From: Lachnospiraceae bacterium
GTDB taxonomy: Bacteria; Bacillota; Clostridia; Lachnospirales; Lachnospiraceae
DNA length: 64,000 nucleotides
Direction of reading: 5' to 3'
NCBI GenBank assembly: GCA_021769135.1
Contig: JAETTM010000005.1
Coordinates: 1-64,000, forward strand
The position numbers and the translations under genes are program-made. Shown piece by piece: positions 3,680-37,234 of the stretch (position 1 is the stretch's first letter; every line of letters begins with the position of its first letter). The notes below the pieces were generated by a model. That model worked only from the letters and a program-made list of their open reading frames with translations. It was not told the DNA's origin and searched no databases.

Positions 3680-3789
3680 GGGGATAAAAGGAAGGAAACA
3701 GCAAAAACGTAAATAGGTAAAATAGGCAAAAATGATGGGAAAAGATACGGTATCCGGATTGTGCAGGGCTTATTGCAGGCCGTATAGAA

Positions 3790-4812
3790 ATGGAGGAAAA
3801 AATGGTAACAGTAGGAATTATCGGGGCAGGAAGAATCGGAAAAGTACATGTGGAAAGCATTTGCACCAAAGTGGCGGACGCCAAAGTAAAGACTTTGGCA
3901 GACCCGTTTATGAATGACGCTACGGCACAATGGGCGAAAAATATGGGTGTGGAAAATATTACGAAGGACTATAAAGAAATACTGGCAGACCCGGAAATCG
4001 ACGCGGTGCTTATCTGTTCGTCTACAGATACCCATTCGGCAATTTCCGTAGAAGCGATTAAAGCCGGAAAGCACGTTTTCTGCGAAAAGCCCATTGACCA
4101 TGACGTGAGTAAAATTAAAGAAGTGGTGCGTGCCCTGGAGGGAAGCAATGTGAAGTATCAGGTCGGCTTCAACCGCCGCTTTGACCATAACTTCGAGGCG
4201 GTACAGAGGGCTGCCGCAGAAGGAAAGGTGGGCGATATCCATCTGATAAAAATTACATCCAGAGACCCGGAGCCGCCAAGTGCGGAATATGTAAAAGTGT
4301 CCGGAGGAATGTTCCTGGATATGACAATCCATGATTTCGATATGGTGCGTTTCCTGGCCGGATGCGATGCGGAGGAAGTGTATACGCAGGCGGCAGTTTT
4401 GGTGGATCCTGCCATTGGGGAAGCGGGGGATGTGGATACGGCGGTTATTACCGTAAAGATGGAAAACGGCGCGATTGCAGTAATTGATAATTCCAGAAAG
4501 GCAGTATATGGCTATGACCAGAGGGCGGAAGTGTTCGGCTCGAAGGGAATGGCGGCCACGGGAAATGATACGGCCTCCGCCATGGTGCTTTCCAATGGGG
4601 AAGGAGTGACGGGGGAAAAGCCGCTGCATTTTTTCCTGGAGCGCTATATGGATGCGTATGCCAAAGAAATCAAATGCTTTATAGAAGCGATTGAAAAAGA
4701 TACGGAAACCCCGCTCGGGGTGATGGATGGCCTGAAGCCGGTGCTTATGGGGCTGGCGGCAAAGAAATCCATGGAAGAGCACCGTCCGGTAAAAATTTCC
4801 GAGATTGAATGA
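3790..4812 (+). CDS. iolG: inositol 2-dehydrogenase (Gfo/Idh/MocA family)
   Basis: N-terminal Rossmann GIIGAGRIGKVH; CEKPIDHD; GGMFLDMTIHDFDMVRFL. Confidence 0.88.
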   Translation: MEEKMVTVGIIGAGRIGKVHVESICTKVADAKVKTLADPFMNDATAQWAKNMGVENITKDYKEILADPEIDAVLICSSTDTHSAISVEAIKAGKHVFCEKPIDHDVSKIKEVVRALEGSNVKYQVGFNRRFDHNFEAVQRAAAEGKVGDIHLIKITSRDPEPPSAEYVKVSGGMFLDMTIHDFDMVRFLAGCDAEEVYTQAAVLVDPAIGEAGDVDTAVITVKMENGAIAVIDNSRKAVYGYDQRAEVFGSKGMAATGNDTASAMVLSNGEGVTGEKPLHFFLERYMDAYAKEIKCFIEAIEKDTETPLGVMDGLKPVLMGLAAKKSMEEHRPVKISEIE

Positions 4813-7931: not shown

Positions 7932-8714
7932 ATGGGAAAATTATTTGGATATCCTGTATTTGATGAGACAGGAGAAATGATTCTTACTACTTATGATAAT
8001 GAATATAAAGAAATGATGATGGACATCCGGCTCTACCGGATGAAAGAGAAGGAAAGCAGAAAATTTTACAGGGAGGGGGAGGAAATGGCCATTCTTCTTC
8101 TTTCCGGTGAGGTTGTCTATGAATGGGAAGGGGAAAAGGGCGAAGCGGCAAGAAAAGACGTATTTACGGAAGGCCCCTGGTGCCTGCATGTAGCCAGGCA
8201 AAAGGAAGTGACGGTTACGGCGGGGAAGGAGACGGAGATTCTCGTTCAGTGCACCCACAATGAACGCGCTTTTGCAAGCCGCCTGTATCGGCCGGAAGAT
8301 GCGCCCTGGGGTTATTCCTGCGTGGGAAAATTCGGCAATGTGGCGAAAAGGAGGGTGAGTACTATTTTTGACCATGACATCTGCCCGGAATCCAATATGG
8401 TTTTGGGGGAAGTGCTGAACGATAAAGGGAACTGGTCGGGGTATCTGCCCCATAGGCATCCCCAGCCGGAGACTTACCTGTTTAAATTCGACAGGCCGGA
8501 AGGATTCGGCGCCAGCTTCGTGGGGGATAATGTATTTAAGAGCGTGAACAACAGCTTTTCCGCGATTCCTGGCGGCGAGCTGCATCCGCAGGCAGTGGCC
8601 CCGGGATTTCAGATGTACACTTGCTGGATGATACGGCATTTGGAGGGCAACCCATGGCTCCAAACGGACAGGTGTGAAGATGAAAGATATGTATGGCTGC
8701 ATGAAAGCCCTTAA
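7932..8714 (+). CDS. iolB: 5-deoxy-glucuronate isomerase
   Basis: Follows iolD; cupin-like, PHRHPQPETYLFKFDRPEGFG; start placed at ATG 7932 after ggcagg. Confidence 0.9.
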   Translation: MGKLFGYPVFDETGEMILTTYDNEYKEMMMDIRLYRMKEKESRKFYREGEEMAILLLSGEVVYEWEGEKGEAARKDVFTEGPWCLHVARQKEVTVTAGKETEILVQCTHNERAFASRLYRPEDAPWGYSCVGKFGNVAKRRVSTIFDHDICPESNMVLGEVLNDKGNWSGYLPHRHPQPETYLFKFDRPEGFGASFVGDNVFKSVNNSFSAIPGGELHPQAVAPGFQMYTCWMIRHLEGNPWLQTDRCEDERYVWLHESP

Positions 8715-8727
8715 GGAAAGGAGAAAA

Positions 8728-8825
8728 GATTGAAAATTGGAAATTTTCAATCCCAAGTTTGTGTCTGCGCGGCATCCACAAACTTGATAAACTCAAATAC
8801 ATTTGAGTGCAAAAAGCCGCGCAGA
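8728..8825 (+). promoter_or_regulatory. structured intergenic leader with nested hairpins and a possible loop-to-RBS pseudoknot
   Basis: Three perfect stems (8728-8738/8742-8752; 8754-8763/8777-8786; 8791-8798/8801-8808) and hairpin-2 loop TCTGCGCGGC (8764-8773) complementary to GCCGCGCAGA (8816-8825). Confidence 0.55.
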
Positions 8826-8838
8826 AATGGAGAAGAAA

Positions 8839-9990
8839 ATGGCAAGAGAATTTATTGTTCCGGGCCAGATAATTAATGGAACCGGAGCCTTGGATATGGC
8901 GGAAAGCGCGTTGGCGCAGCTTGGGAAAAAAGCGATGATTGTTACGGATAAAGTAATGATTGAGTTGGGGAACTGCGAAAAAGTGGAAAATGCCCTGAAA
9001 AACCAGGGAATTGAATATATGGTTTATTCGGGAATAACAGGGGAGCCCACCGATAAAATGGTTGAGGAGGGGCTGGCTTTATACAAAGCCCAAAACTGCG
9101 ATTTCCTGGTAGCCCTTGGCGGCGGGAGCCCCATTGATGCGATGAAAGCAATCGCTTCTTTGGCCGCTCATGGCGGCGATATTGCCGATTATATGGGAAA
9201 AGAGATTTCTGTAGAAATGCCCCCCATCGTAGCGATACCGACAACGGCGGGCACAGGCTCTGAGGCGACCCAGTTTACAATTATTACGGATACGCGTAAA
9301 GATGTGAAAATGCTGCTGAAGGGCAAGGTGTTAATCCCCCGTCTGGCAGTGATAGACCCCCAGTTTACCATGACGGCGCCGCCGAAGATTACGGCAGCTA
9401 CCGGGTTGGATGCGCTCTGCCATGCAATAGAGGCATATACATCCAGGAAATCCCAGGAAATGTCCGATACCTTTGCTTTGTCGGCAGTAAAGAGAATTTT
9501 CCAGTATCTTCCCAAAGCATTCCATAACGGGCAGGACGAAGCGGCCAGAGTACAAATGTCCGTTGCAGCGCTGGAAGCAGGGATTGCATTTAACAATGCC
9601 AGCGTTACATTGATTCATGGCATGAGCCGTCCTATCGGCGCCCTGTTCCATGTGGCCCATGGCCTTTCCAATGCAATGCTGATGAAAGAGTGCTTAAGTT
9701 TTGCCCTGGAAGGTGCTTATGAACGTTTTGCCGCACTTGGGCGTGCAGTGGGAGCGGCGGGAATGGAAGATTCCAGCCAGATTGCGGGAGAGAAATTCCT
9801 GGCAGCTGTAATAGCATTGACGGAAGAGCTGGAAACTCCTACGTTGGAAGAGTATGGCATATCGAAAGAGGTGTTTTTCCAGGCAATACCCAAAATGGCT
9901 CAGGATGCCATGACAAGCGGCAGTCCGCAGAATACGCTGCGTGAAGTGACTCAGGAAGATATAGAGCAAATGTATAAAAATCTGTGGTGA
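8839..9990 (+). CDS. iron-containing alcohol dehydrogenase
   Basis: GGGSPIDAMKAIA; TTAGTGSEATQFTIITD; GLDALCHAIEAYTS Fe-ADH motifs; RBS ggagaag before ATG 8839. Confidence 0.92.
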   Translation: MAREFIVPGQIINGTGALDMAESALAQLGKKAMIVTDKVMIELGNCEKVENALKNQGIEYMVYSGITGEPTDKMVEEGLALYKAQNCDFLVALGGGSPIDAMKAIASLAAHGGDIADYMGKEISVEMPPIVAIPTTAGTGSEATQFTIITDTRKDVKMLLKGKVLIPRLAVIDPQFTMTAPPKITAATGLDALCHAIEAYTSRKSQEMSDTFALSAVKRIFQYLPKAFHNGQDEAARVQMSVAALEAGIAFNNASVTLIHGMSRPIGALFHVAHGLSNAMLMKECLSFALEGAYERFAALGRAVGAAGMEDSSQIAGEKFLAAVIALTEELETPTLEEYGISKEVFFQAIPKMAQDAMTSGSPQNTLREVTQEDIEQMYKNLW

Positions 9991-24337: not shown

Positions 24338-25378
24338 ATGCCGAGAATTATGACCATGGGAGAACTGCTTTGTGAGATTATGCGGCCGGGCGAAGATATG
24401 GAACTGTTTGAGACAGGAGATTTCAAAGGCCCGTACCCCAGTGGAGCTCCGGGAATATTTATCAGCACAGCGGCGCGGTTGGGCTGCTCTTCCGGCATTA
24501 TCGCGGGAGTAGGGAAGGACGATTTCGGCAAAAATATTATAGACAGGCTTCACAAAGACGGAGTGGACTGCCGTTGGATAATGGAAAGCGGGAAAGGTTC
24601 TACCGGGGTTGCCTTTGTGATGTATTATGGCAATGGGGAGCGGAAATTCATTTTTCATATGGACAATACCCCGGCTGTCTGGCCGAAAGCGCCGGGAAGC
24701 CTGGACGGGATGGAGGATACGGAATATTTTCATATCATGGGCTGTTCGCTGATGGCTTCCGTGGAATTCGGGCAGGAGATTCTAAAGGCCATGGGCATGT
24801 TTTCCCAAAAAGGGGCGAAAATCAGTTTTGACCCCAATGTGAGGCCGGAACTGCTGCGTGAGCCAAAAGCCTTTGACATGGTGCGTGAGGCATTTGAAGG
24901 CTGCAATATTTTTATGCCGGGCGTACAGGAGCTTAAGATGCTGACAGGGAAAGGCAAAAGTAAAGGCGGAGCGTCTGGCAGCCCTGATGGCGGAATAGGA
25001 ATGGCTGGAAAAGAAGGCATAGAAAAGGAAGATATTGCCGAGGCGGTAGAAATTGCTTTTGAAAATAAGAACCTGGAAATTCTGGTTTTGAAAAATGGCT
25101 CTAAAGGCTCTTCGGTTTATACAAGAAAGGGCCTTGAAGTGGAAATGGGCGTTTATCCGGTAAAACAACTGGACGCTACCGGGGCAGGAGACAGCTTTGA
25201 CGCCGCCTTTATCTGCGGGCTGGCCCAGGGTAAGAGCCTGAAGGAGGCGGCACAAATGGGGGCGGCGGCAGGGGCTTTGAATGCTGCGGCCTTCGGCCCT
25301 ATGGAAGGGGTTATTACCCCTCAAAATATAGAGAAAATGATAGGGGAAAATAAGTTTATGCCCGCACAGAATCCATAA
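24338..25378 (+). CDS. PfkB-family sugar kinase
   Basis: MPRIMTMGELLCEIMRPGED; DATGAGDSFDAAFICGLAQG. Confidence 0.9.
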   Translation: MPRIMTMGELLCEIMRPGEDMELFETGDFKGPYPSGAPGIFISTAARLGCSSGIIAGVGKDDFGKNIIDRLHKDGVDCRWIMESGKGSTGVAFVMYYGNGERKFIFHMDNTPAVWPKAPGSLDGMEDTEYFHIMGCSLMASVEFGQEILKAMGMFSQKGAKISFDPNVRPELLREPKAFDMVREAFEGCNIFMPGVQELKMLTGKGKSKGGASGSPDGGIGMAGKEGIEKEDIAEAVEIAFENKNLEILVLKNGSKGSSVYTRKGLEVEMGVYPVKQLDATGAGDSFDAAFICGLAQGKSLKEAAQMGAAAGALNAAAFGPMEGVITPQNIEKMIGENKFMPAQNP

Positions 25379-25447
25379 ACAGAGCCGGGCTTGAAACAGG
25401 TTTTGATGCAAAAACAGCGCAGAAACAGCGCGGAAATGAGGCGGAAT

Positions 25448-26296
25448 ATGTCATTTGTAACATCCAGGAAAATGCTTTTGGATGCCCAAAAGGGAGGTTA
25501 TGCGGTCGGCGCATTTAATATTGAAAATATGGAAATGGTCGTGGCTGTGATTGAGGCGGCGGAAGAAATGAGGGCGCCCCTGATGCTTCAGACAACGCCG
25601 TCCACCGTAAAATATGCCGGATTGGATTTATATCTGGCGAATGTAAAGACGGCTGCAGAACGCGCCAGTGTTCCGGTATGCCTGCATTTGGACCATGGAG
25701 ATAGTTTTGACCTGGCCATGCGCGCCCTGCGTACCGGATACAGCTCTATTATGATTGACGGCTCCCACGGCGTATTTGAAGAAAATATAGCGGTGACCAA
25801 AGCGGTGGCGGATGCCTGCCGTCCTTCGGGAATCCCGGTAGAGGCGGAATTGGGAAAAGTAGGCGGCAAAGAGGATGATTTGGACGGGGGCAGCGGCGGA
25901 TATACGGACCCGGAGGAAGCGAGGGAGTTTGTGGAACGTACAGGCGTGGGCTCCCTGGCTGTGGCCATCGGAACAGCCCATGGCGTTTATAAAGGAGAGC
26001 CTAAGCTGGATTTGGAGCGCCTGGAAGAAATACGTAAAGTGGTTACTATCCCCCTGGTGCTTCACGGAGCCAGTGGCCTTTCCAGGGAAGCGGTGGAAGA
26101 GAGCATTAAAAGGGGCATTTGCAAGGTGAATTTTGCTACGGAACTCCGCATTGCCTATACAGATGGGGTAAAACAGTTCCTGGCGGAGAATCCGGATGCC
26201 TTCGACCCGAAGAAATACGGGAAAGCTGCCATGGAACATGTGAAAGAAACCGTAAAGCAGCGCATTGAGATGTGCGGATGCAACGGAAAAGCATGA
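25448..26296 (+). CDS. class II ketose-bisphosphate aldolase (GatY/KbaY/Fba-like)
   Basis: MSFVTSRKMLLDAQKGGYAVGAFNIENMEM; CLHLDHGDSFDLAMRALRTGYSSIMIDGSH; VLHGASGL. Confidence 0.9.
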   Translation: MSFVTSRKMLLDAQKGGYAVGAFNIENMEMVVAVIEAAEEMRAPLMLQTTPSTVKYAGLDLYLANVKTAAERASVPVCLHLDHGDSFDLAMRALRTGYSSIMIDGSHGVFEENIAVTKAVADACRPSGIPVEAELGKVGGKEDDLDGGSGGYTDPEEAREFVERTGVGSLAVAIGTAHGVYKGEPKLDLERLEEIRKVVTIPLVLHGASGLSREAVEESIKRGICKVNFATELRIAYTDGVKQFLAENPDAFDPKKYGKAAMEHVKETVKQRIEMCGCNGKA

Positions 26297-34802: not shown

Positions 34803-36011
34803 ATGATAAATGTAGCGGTATTGGGATATGGCACTGTGGGGAGCGGTGTTGTAGAAGTTATTGAAAAGAATAAAGAAGAAATAAATAAGAAATCGGGGGA
34901 AAGCCTGAATATTAAATATATTCTGGATTTAAGGGATTTTCCGGGAGACCCTTATGAAAGCAAAGTGGTTCATGATGTGGAAATCATTATGAACGATCCG
35001 GAAATCAACGTAATCTGCGAAACCATGGGGGGGATTCACCCCGCTTATGAATTTTCCAAGAGGGCCCTTCTTTTAGGGAAGAGCGTATGCACTTCCAATA
35101 AAGAGCTGGTGGCAAACCATGGGCCGGAGCTGATTCGGCTGGCGAAAGAGAATAAGTGCAATTATCTGTTTGAAGCCAGCGTGGGCGGTGGGATTCCGAT
35201 TATCCGTCCTATCAACTATTCCCTGACGGCGGAAAAGATCGATGGAATTACCGGCATTTTGAATGGAACTACCAATTATATCCTGTCGAAAATGGCAGAA
35301 GAAGGGGCGGATTTCGAAGACGTGCTCAAGGAGGCCCAGGAGAAAGGGTATGCGGAGAGGAACCCGGAAGCGGATGTGGAAGGCTACGATGCCTGCCGTA
35401 AGATTGCAATCCTTTCTTCCCTTATGACGGGGAAAAACGTGAAATATGAGGATATATATACGGAGGGGATTACGAAAATCACAGCGACGGATTTTGTTTA
35501 TGCCAAGGCGATGGGCCGTTCCATTAAACTGTTGGCAATGAGCAGGGAATGCGAGGATGGAAGCTTTTATGCCATGGTGGCCCCTTTTATGATTCCCATG
35601 AGTCATCCGCTCTACAGCGTGAGCGGGGTATTCAATGCGGTATTCGTCCATGGGAATATGCTGGGCGATTCCATGTACTACGGAAAAGGGGCGGGCAAAC
35701 TGCCCACGGCAAGCGCGGTGGTCTCCGATGTGGTGGACTGCGCAAGGCATATCGGCAAAACGATTATGTGCTTTTGGGATGATGAGGATGTGAAACAGGC
35801 GAAAGTGGACAACATCAGGCACCGTTTCTTCGTGCGGACCAAAGCGGAGCTGGAAAAAGAGGCCATAGAGATTTTTGGCATGATGCGGGTAGTGGTAGCG
35901 GACGTGGAAGGCGAATATGCTTTTATAACGGAGGAAATGAGCGAGAGGGAGTTCGACGAAAAGGCGAAGAAGCTGGGGGGCGTTTTGAACAGGATTCGCC
36001 TGGAAGCATAA
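34803..36011 (+). CDS. hom: homoserine dehydrogenase
   Basis: INVAVLGYGTVGSGVVEVI; GGGIPIIRPINYSLTAEKIDGITGILNGTTNYILSKM. Confidence 0.95.
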   Translation: MINVAVLGYGTVGSGVVEVIEKNKEEINKKSGESLNIKYILDLRDFPGDPYESKVVHDVEIIMNDPEINVICETMGGIHPAYEFSKRALLLGKSVCTSNKELVANHGPELIRLAKENKCNYLFEASVGGGIPIIRPINYSLTAEKIDGITGILNGTTNYILSKMAEEGADFEDVLKEAQEKGYAERNPEADVEGYDACRKIAILSSLMTGKNVKYEDIYTEGITKITATDFVYAKAMGRSIKLLAMSRECEDGSFYAMVAPFMIPMSHPLYSVSGVFNAVFVHGNMLGDSMYYGKGAGKLPTASAVVSDVVDCARHIGKTIMCFWDDEDVKQAKVDNIRHRFFVRTKAELEKEAIEIFGMMRVVVADVEGEYAFITEEMSEREFDEKAKKLGGVLNRIRLEA

Positions 36012-36019
36012 AAGCGGAA

Positions 36020-37234
36020 ATGGAGAAAAAAATGAAATATATCATAGTACTGGGAGACGGCATGGCGGATGAGCCGATAGAGGCTTTGGGGAACAAAACC
36101 CCCCTGGCCTATGCTGCAACTCCGGTGATGGACAGATTAAGCAAAAAGTCGGAAATCGGCATGGTTCATACGATACCGGAGGGGATGAAACCGGGTTCGG
36201 ATACGGCGAATCTATCGGTGCTGGGATATGACCCTGCGGTTTATTATTCCGGGCGTTCCCCGTTGGAAGCGTTAAGCATCGGTGTGCCGATGAAAGAAAC
36301 GGATATTGCGCTTCGCTGCAATATTGTTACAATTTCGGAGGAAGATGTTCCTTTTGAGGAAAAAAGGATTCTGGACCACAGTTCCGACGAAATCAGCACG
36401 GAGGATTGCGCGGTGCTGCTGGAAGCGGTGAGGGAAGAGCTGGAAAGAGAGGATTATCATTTTTACGTAGGAACCAGTTACCGGCATTGCCTGATTTGGA
36501 ATAATGGAAAAGTGGTGGAATTGACGCCGCCCCATGACGTGCTGGGGCAGGTGATAGGGCAGTATCTTCCGGAGGACGGCGTCTTGCGGAGTATGATGAA
36601 AAGAAGCTATGAGATATTGTCCAGGCATCCCCTGAATGAAGAGCGGAAAAAGAAGGGCCAAAACCCGGCGAACTGTTGCTGGTTCTGGGGGGCAGGAACA
36701 AAACCAATGCTGGATTCTTTTGAAGAGAAGACCGGCAAACGGGGAATGATGATTTCGGCGGTGGATCTGCTTAAAGGGATTGCCGTGGGGGCAGGAATGG
36801 GCGTGAGCCATGTGGAAGGGGCAAACGGCGGCCTGCATACCAATTATGAAGGAAAAGCGGGGGCGGCGTTGAAGGCTTTGTTGGAAGACGGATATGATTT
36901 CGCATACATCCATATTGAAGCCCCCGACGAAATGGGCCATCAGGGGAGCGTGGAAAAGAAAGTGCAGGCGATTGAATATCTGGATAGCAGGGTGCTGAAA
37001 CCACTGACAGAACGCCTGGATGAAGAGGGCGTGGAATACCGTCTGATGGTGCTGCCTGACCACCCTACGCCGATACGGGTGCGCACCCATACCGGAGACA
37101 GCGTACCCTATATGCTTTATGACAGCGGCAGGCCTTTGGAAAAGGGCTGGGATTATACGGAGGAAGAGGGGAGAAAAAGCGGGAACTATGTACCCCAGGG
37201 CCACAAGCTGATAGAACGATTGTTCTTGCGCTAG
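36020..37234 (+). CDS. cofactor-independent phosphoglycerate mutase-like protein (ApgM family; possible alternative homoserine kinase)
   Basis: MKYIIVLGDGMADEPIEALGNKTPLAYAATPVMDRL; alkaline-phosphatase superfamily; between hom and lysC-type gene. Confidence 0.9.
   Translation: MEKKMKYIIVLGDGMADEPIEALGNKTPLAYAATPVMDRLSKKSEIGMVHTIPEGMKPGSDTANLSVLGYDPAVYYSGRSPLEALSIGVPMKETDIALRCNIVTISEEDVPFEEKRILDHSSDEISTEDCAVLLEAVREELEREDYHFYVGTSYRHCLIWNNGKVVELTPPHDVLGQVIGQYLPEDGVLRSMMKRSYEILSRHPLNEERKKKGQNPANCCWFWGAGTKPMLDSFEEKTGKRGMMISAVDLLKGIAVGAGMGVSHVEGANGGLHTNYEGKAGAALKALLEDGYDFAYIHIEAPDEMGHQGSVEKKVQAIEYLDSRVLKPLTERLDEEGVEYRLMVLPDHPTPIRVRTHTGDSVPYMLYDSGRPLEKGWDYTEEEGRKSGNYVPQGHKLIERLFLR

Follow-up and report, generated by a model that had tools for sequence, protein, structure and literature searches.

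In this study, we analyzed a window of 64,000 nucleotides from a Lachnospiraceae bacterium (the whole stretch examined, positions 1 to 64,000 of the forward strand of contig JAETTM010000005.1, GenBank assembly GCA_021769135.1), with a focus on the junction between iolB and a gene for an iron-containing alcohol dehydrogenase (ADH). An initial annotation of this sequence had proposed a pseudoknot-type RNA leader between the two genes, consisting of three hairpins and a 10-nt loop complement in front of the ribosome-binding site (RBS) of the ADH gene. Every element of that description is present, and the flanking genes were assigned to the KduI/IolB and Fe-ADH families by Pfam (Table 1). The leader belongs to a set of roughly a hundred related copies in this genome. 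They form a repeat family that is placed at start codons and has been gained or lost between sister species, and both stems of the pseudoknot are conserved as RNA.

The three hairpins lie in series at 8728-8825. Hairpin 2 is formed by the arms CAAGTTTGTG and CACAAACTTG and has the loop TCTGCGCGGCATC, which is perfectly complementary to GCCGCGCAGA further downstream, the segment TCTGCGCGGC of the loop being the exact reverse complement. In front of the ADH gene, GCCGCGCAGA (8816-8825) is followed by AAT, the Shine-Dalgarno (SD) sequence GGAG and the ATG at 8839. When the downstream sequence was dinucleotide-shuffled 5000 times, not one shuffle reached a 10-nt complement to the loop. The folding z-scores of the region are -3.2 (RNA) and -5.8 (DNA), in both cases better than all 200 shuffles. 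Below, S1 denotes the stem of hairpin 2 and S2 the stem between its loop and the SD-proximal strand.

Table 1. Features of the iolB-ADH junction, the second copy in the window and TwoAYGGAY copies in sister species G003 (L, locus)
Feature	Position	Strand	Evidence or remark
Upstream gene, KduI/IolB family	7935..8714	+	Pfam; start approximate, stop TAA 8712-8714
Upstream SD-like GGAG	8720..8723	+	7 nt 5' of TTG in hairpin 1 foot
Hairpin 1, GATTGAAAATT gga AATTTTCAATC	8728..8752	+	Arms 8728-8738/8742-8752; variable module
Pseudoknot stem S1, 5' strand CAAGTTTGTG	8754..8763	+	Sequence and covariation; 5' arm of hairpin 2
Probable loop L1, TCT (TCC in many copies), bridging S2	8764..8766	+	Third position often C opposite invariant A
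Pseudoknot stem S2, 5' strand GCGCGGC, within loop of hairpin 2	8767..8773	+	Covariation
Pseudoknot stem S1, 3' strand CACAAACTTG	8777..8786	+	Sequence and covariation; 3' arm of hairpin 2
Variable spacer (loop 3) with hairpin 3	8787..8815	+	Copy comparison
Hairpin 3, ACTCAAAT ac ATTTGAGT	8791..8808	+	Arms 8791-8798/8801-8808
Pseudoknot stem S2, 3' strand GCCGCGC	8816..8822	+	Covariation; 10-nt complement of the initial annotation extends to 8825
Conserved 3' end AGAAATGGAG (consensus AGAAATGRGG)	8823..8832	+	Includes the element's own SD, GGAG 8829-8832
Downstream gene, iron-containing alcohol dehydrogenase (Fe-ADH)	8839..9990	+	Pfam; ATG 8839-8841
Second, partly decayed copy	25351..25450	+	37.6 bits, E 2.5e-7 in window
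TwoAYGGAY copy, G003, L271	1486..1648		
TwoAYGGAY copy, G003, L274	1044..1206		
TwoAYGGAY copy, G003, L274	1487..1647		

A dispersed repeat family placed at start codons

A BLAST search of the same genome gave 42 matches to the element, the best of them more than 90% identical. With a covariance model of 25 copies, 145 matches were obtained at E<=1; 117 of them have E<=0.01 and about 74 have E<5e-6. Many near-identical copies within one genome, together with filled and empty orthologous sites in sister species, place the element among dispersed repeats or miniature mobile elements in the broad sense. Tandem insertions are found at L014 and L027. Within the genus, at least 60 copies are present in each of the genomes G000, G001, G002, G009, G013 and G015, and smaller numbers in G012 (31), G005 (14), G003 (nine), G004 (two) and G008 (one); among the genus genomes searched, no copies were found in G006, G007, G010, G011 and G014. 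In a sample of the family, 16 of 150 genomes have matches, three of these with at least 20, and beyond the family only one of 24 genomes of the same order has any. Named carriers include Lachnospiraceae bacterium 28-4, 10-1, IMSAGC_002 and 526-35, Parablautia intestinalis, P. muri, and metagenome-assembled genomes of Acetatifactor and Roseburia.

The copies are about 90-125 nt long and follow a common plan: an optional hairpin 1, S1 with its loop, a variable spacer, the S2 strand GCCGCGC, and the end AGAAATGRGG. This end is nearly invariant and contains the SD sequence, with the start codon about 5-6 nt further on, and the UCY/AUC letters of the loop are nearly invariant as well. Hairpin 1 has the form GAGTGAAAGAT../..ATCTTTCACTC in other copies and species and is absent in several copies, while the spacer measures 13 nt in its commonest short form, 29 nt with hairpin 3, or holds other inserts.

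Nearly all copies are located immediately 5' of a start codon, and those examined all have one orientation, that of the gene. At 77 of the 82 sites examined in the same genome, the model ends at the start codon of an open reading frame (ORF) of at least 60 amino acids (or open to the stretch end), and an ATG lies no more than 1 nt from the model end at 72 of the 82, against 2% of random positions; both counts lean towards this result, as the covariance model itself ends in ATG. An independent check was provided by 81 loci fetched with the S1-hairpin pattern alone, nearly all of which also have the S2 strand, the SD sequence and the ATG. Among the five exceptions to the placement, at least L027 is the first copy of a tandem pair, and L282 is probably a second such case. 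An upstream ORF on the same strand ends within 250 nt at 51 of the 82 sites, and many copies lie between genes of probable operons, a location that speaks for a role in translation or RNA processing more than for one in promoters. The genes downstream (thrS, ackA, upp, galE, ilvD, a sigma-factor gene and others) have no common function.

Comparison of orthologous sites revealed that the element has been gained or lost, as sister species differ in its presence. In the nearest relative, G001, the iolB-ADH junction reads TAGatatttgtatttgaaaatattttcAGGAGGAGAAGAGAAATGG, with an ordinary SD sequence and without the element. At L004, ggagagggggcagaggaATGAGAAAAG in G001 corresponds to ggagagggggcgga-element-GGAGTAAAGAATGAAAAAAG in the present genome (ggagagggggcggaAGATTGAAAATT...GCAGAAATGGAGTAAAGAATGAAAAAAG), and at L021, aaggaagaaaggagaaaaaATGG in G002 corresponds to aaggaagaaaggaggaa-element-GAGGGTAAATATGG. 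At such cleanly readable junctions, the element stands between the native SD sequence and the ATG and supplies a new SD.

A further observation in the comparison with G001-G015 concerns L009 (the sigma-factor gene) and L004, where genes that abut or overlap in the sister species, with stop and start within a few nt, are opened by the element and the downstream gene gets a separate SD sequence. The element may break translational coupling at such junctions.

Conservation of the pseudoknot as RNA

When S1 and S2 of 25 copies were aligned as a pseudoknot, 95.4% of the cells were paired and 19 cells carried double changes, compared with 4.2 after shuffling. In the same 25 copies, a shift of the partner by 1-3 columns abolished the covariation signal. 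Among 121 distinct copies from the same genome and many Lachnospiraceae, 89 form every pair of the 7-bp S2; reassignment of the 3' strands among copies gave 39.8 such copies on average and 55 at most. At one S2 pair, G-C, U-A, U-G, G-U and A-U are all found. The slide control and this variety of pair types argue against an artefact of alignment. Moreover, G.U outnumbers A.C at the paired positions of these 121 copies by 124 to 33, an excess that persists when the one S1 pair contributing 37 G.U is left out, and this favours the sense RNA, not DNA, as the folding molecule. The two covarying stems, S1 of about 10 bp and S2 of about 7 bp, have the crossing topology of an H-type RNA pseudoknot. 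An S2 of 10 bp was also considered and rejected: many copies have C at the third loop position, facing an invariant A, which makes a 7-bp S2 with an L1 of 3 nt the better fit, and the shorter stem also eases the geometry of the pseudoknot.

The pairing was further followed at orthologous sites in G000, G001 and G002, where most stem changes keep it. For example, a U-A pair of L039 corresponds to C-G at the orthologous site, and the L003 site has four double changes and one broken pair. Some decay of pairing was seen as well, in L023 of G002 and in L032. The pseudoknot-type leader of the initial annotation is supported, with the loop and the RBS-proximal segment covarying across copies and species, and these comparisons indicate that the fold is kept by selection. 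The initial annotation had also staked its proposal on homologous intergenic regions retaining the loop-leader complementarity. At the G001 junction it is missing together with the entire element and in no other sense; sites that do have the element have mostly retained the complementarity.

In both main states of the structure the SD sequence is unpaired, as it is covered neither by the S1 hairpin nor by the S2 pairing, and a classical sequestration switch is therefore not evident. A riboswitch is unlikely because the downstream genes show no functional theme, and a ligand-sensing switch is not supported.

Known families and possible explanations

The initial annotation had recognised no known riboswitch class, and in agreement with this, Rfam gave no match at the gathering threshold anywhere in the window. 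The best sub-threshold match was TD-2 RNA (RF03162; 27.4 bits against a cut-off of 48.7, on the opposite strand), which likewise has three consecutive hairpins; we judged it a generic hairpin match. The TD-2 model also scores unrelated TwoAYGGAY hairpins in a relative (42.9 bits). TwoAYGGAY RNA itself (RF01731, an unexplained candidate RNA) has several copies in sister species G003, embedded in larger inverted repeats (Table 1). A description of the present element was not found by full-text literature searches, whose reach left out most subscription papers.

Several known systems share part of its features. The BOX and RUP repeats of Streptococcus pneumoniae are modular mobile repeats near genes with RNA stem-loops, and in these respects they resemble the element. 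Unlike the element, they are not known to be confined to the start codon or to include an SD-carrying pseudoknot. The preQ1 and SAM-II translational riboswitches have an H-type pseudoknot next to the SD sequence, which the pseudoknot engages, and their genes share a pathway. The element likewise has an H-type pseudoknot immediately 5' of the SD sequence, but here the SD lies outside the pseudoknot, the genes are unrelated and there is no Rfam match.

The repeats bcr1-bcr18 of the Bacillus cereus group are present in high copy number between genes, several of them resembling miniature inverted-repeat transposable elements, and are located in untranslated regions (UTRs) and between operon genes; some, namely bcr10 and bcr18, are predicted RNA elements in 5' UTRs (PMC3446304, citing Kristoffersen et al. 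2011). Copy number, intergenic location in UTRs or operon gaps and, for some, the RNA prediction are thus shared with the element, whereas a tie to start codons, an SD sequence and a pseudoknot do not appear in the description of bcr as far as that source gives it, the comparison being one of described features. REPINs and REP elements, which are associated with RAYT transposases, are short non-autonomous palindromic extragenic repeats with compensatory changes in their hairpins (PMC3116915), and the element is likewise short and extragenic with compensatory hairpin changes. Unlike REPINs, however, it is asymmetrical, fixed in orientation and at the start codon, and without link to Y1 (RAYT) genes; it is not a symmetrical doublet with free place and orientation. 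As a kind, dispersed repeats that are short and structured are known, with bcr, BOX and REPIN elements as examples, and the present element is set apart by its start-codon placement, its own SD sequence and a covarying pseudoknot.

Judging from these sequence comparisons, the element is probably a mobile or dispersed structured translation-start cassette that would act as RNA in the 5' leader or operon gap of any host gene. Copies would spread by inserting directly at a start codon, which would push the native SD sequence upstream, and the host gene would then be translated from the element's own SD sequence, with the start codon at a nearly fixed distance. The pseudoknot would fold just upstream, leaving the SD free and insulated from upstream RNA or translation, and insertion might thereby be tolerated or even useful. 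Only tentatively do we go further and suggest a mobile RNA pseudoknot cassette whose insertion is specific for start codons and which, with its own SD sequence, takes charge of initiation in a few percent of a gut bacterium's genes and imposes a common translational control or insulation on them.

Several points weigh against a translation-start cassette. The copies are paralogues, so the covariation counts are not independent events, and some orthologous pairs with the element may be separate insertions. Part of the right-hand SD region looks like native sequence in ADH, L011 and the like, which makes the exact right boundary of the element uncertain. Many copies have SD-like sequence on both sides, but no clean target-site duplication was identified. 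Nor was an autonomous partner identified: in the genus genomes, counts of Y1 transposases do not track the copy number of the element, and mobilisation by reverse transcriptases was rejected, as their counts are not correlated with copies and none is present in the element-rich G009. Carriage by phages or plasmids was considered too, and no match to the element was found in phage or plasmid collections; a single copy on a viral contig (L177) precedes a gene that, as read from the sequence, resembles a cation-transporting ATPase, and this contig is probably host DNA.

Other explanations were weighed against the same evidence. A trans-acting factor (protein, small RNA or metabolite) might bind the pseudoknot and control the translation of a large regulon, with copies spreading by conferring control; this would agree with the conservation of both stems as RNA beside the SD sequence, the pairing kept at orthologous sites and the near invariance of the UCY/AUC loop letters and AGAAAUGRGG. 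We nevertheless regard such a regulon as rather unlikely, because the downstream genes lack a functional theme, the element is absent at many of the same genes in sister species, the SD is unpaired in either structure, leaving no obvious switch, and no candidate regulator came up. We rate lower again a purely selfish miniature transposable element of the IS200/IS605 or REPIN type, whose hairpins would serve DNA transposition and whose SD sequence would merely limit host damage. While G.U pairs far above A.C at the variable positions favour RNA and pairing is maintained even in old orthologous copies, a selfish element would explain the high copy number with near-identical recent copies, the tandem insertions and the patchy occurrence within one genus. 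Mobilisation by IS200/IS605 (Y1) was rejected, as Y1 genes are absent from the carriers G001, G005 and G012, abundant in the copy-free G010 and not correlated with copy number; the single orientation relative to the gene is also unlike REPINs.

The location between iolB and the ADH gene could suggest that the leader serves specifically this alcohol dehydrogenase or the use of myo-inositol. This extremely improbable explanation is already refuted by the same element standing before dozens of unrelated genes and by its absence from this junction in G001. Accordingly, where the initial annotation had spoken of a regulatory switch or RNA element, the RNA element is supported, while support is lacking for a switch that serves this ADH alone.

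If the element is indeed a translation-start cassette, it would represent a class of dispersed elements that rewires translation initiation gene by gene, bringing along a ribosome-binding site as well as an RNA fold under selection, and in gut Lachnospiraceae it would touch essential genes (thrS, ackA, galE). Unrelated genes with identical leaders, together with matched empty orthologues, would then form a natural series in which the influence of an upstream pseudoknot on translation could be tested directly. It would also raise the question of how any element finds start codons.

Module variation and further copies in the window

An SD-like motif lies 5' of the hairpin 1 foot in 80 of the 99 copies with that foot, with a TTG or GTG start codon a few nt on. 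A conserved leader peptide, starting from this upstream SD via the TTG or GTG of hairpin 1, was considered and rejected, since the frame through the conserved core varies (three different peptides); without a conserved frame across the element, no leader peptide was proposed. In one copy of the same genome (L022, C30, 20645-20716), a second palindrome, ctagtactccgtactc...gagtacggagtactag, splits hairpin 1, and a different small repeat has apparently been inserted there in nested fashion. Between S1 and S2, the spacers of L010, L015, L024, L033 and the IMSAGC_002 copies have an exchangeable hairpin module (AAGCTTCGGCGAAGCCGAACCACA, CCCCGGAAATGCCGGGGCACA) in common, which suggests that modules are swapped between copies.

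In addition to the ADH leader, the window contains weak matches at 3776-3804 and 35973-36034 (18.4 and 17.7 bits) to the 3' end of the element only. These consist of AGAAATGGAGG-type sequence before start codons, and may be remnants of the element or may reflect the usual surroundings of SD sequences in this genome. The second, partly decayed copy in the window (Table 1) precedes a gene assigned by Pfam to class II fructose-bisphosphate aldolase (ATG at 25448). Its S1 arm forms the last codons and the stop of a PfkB-type kinase gene (24338-25378), so that this remnant has been absorbed into coding sequence.
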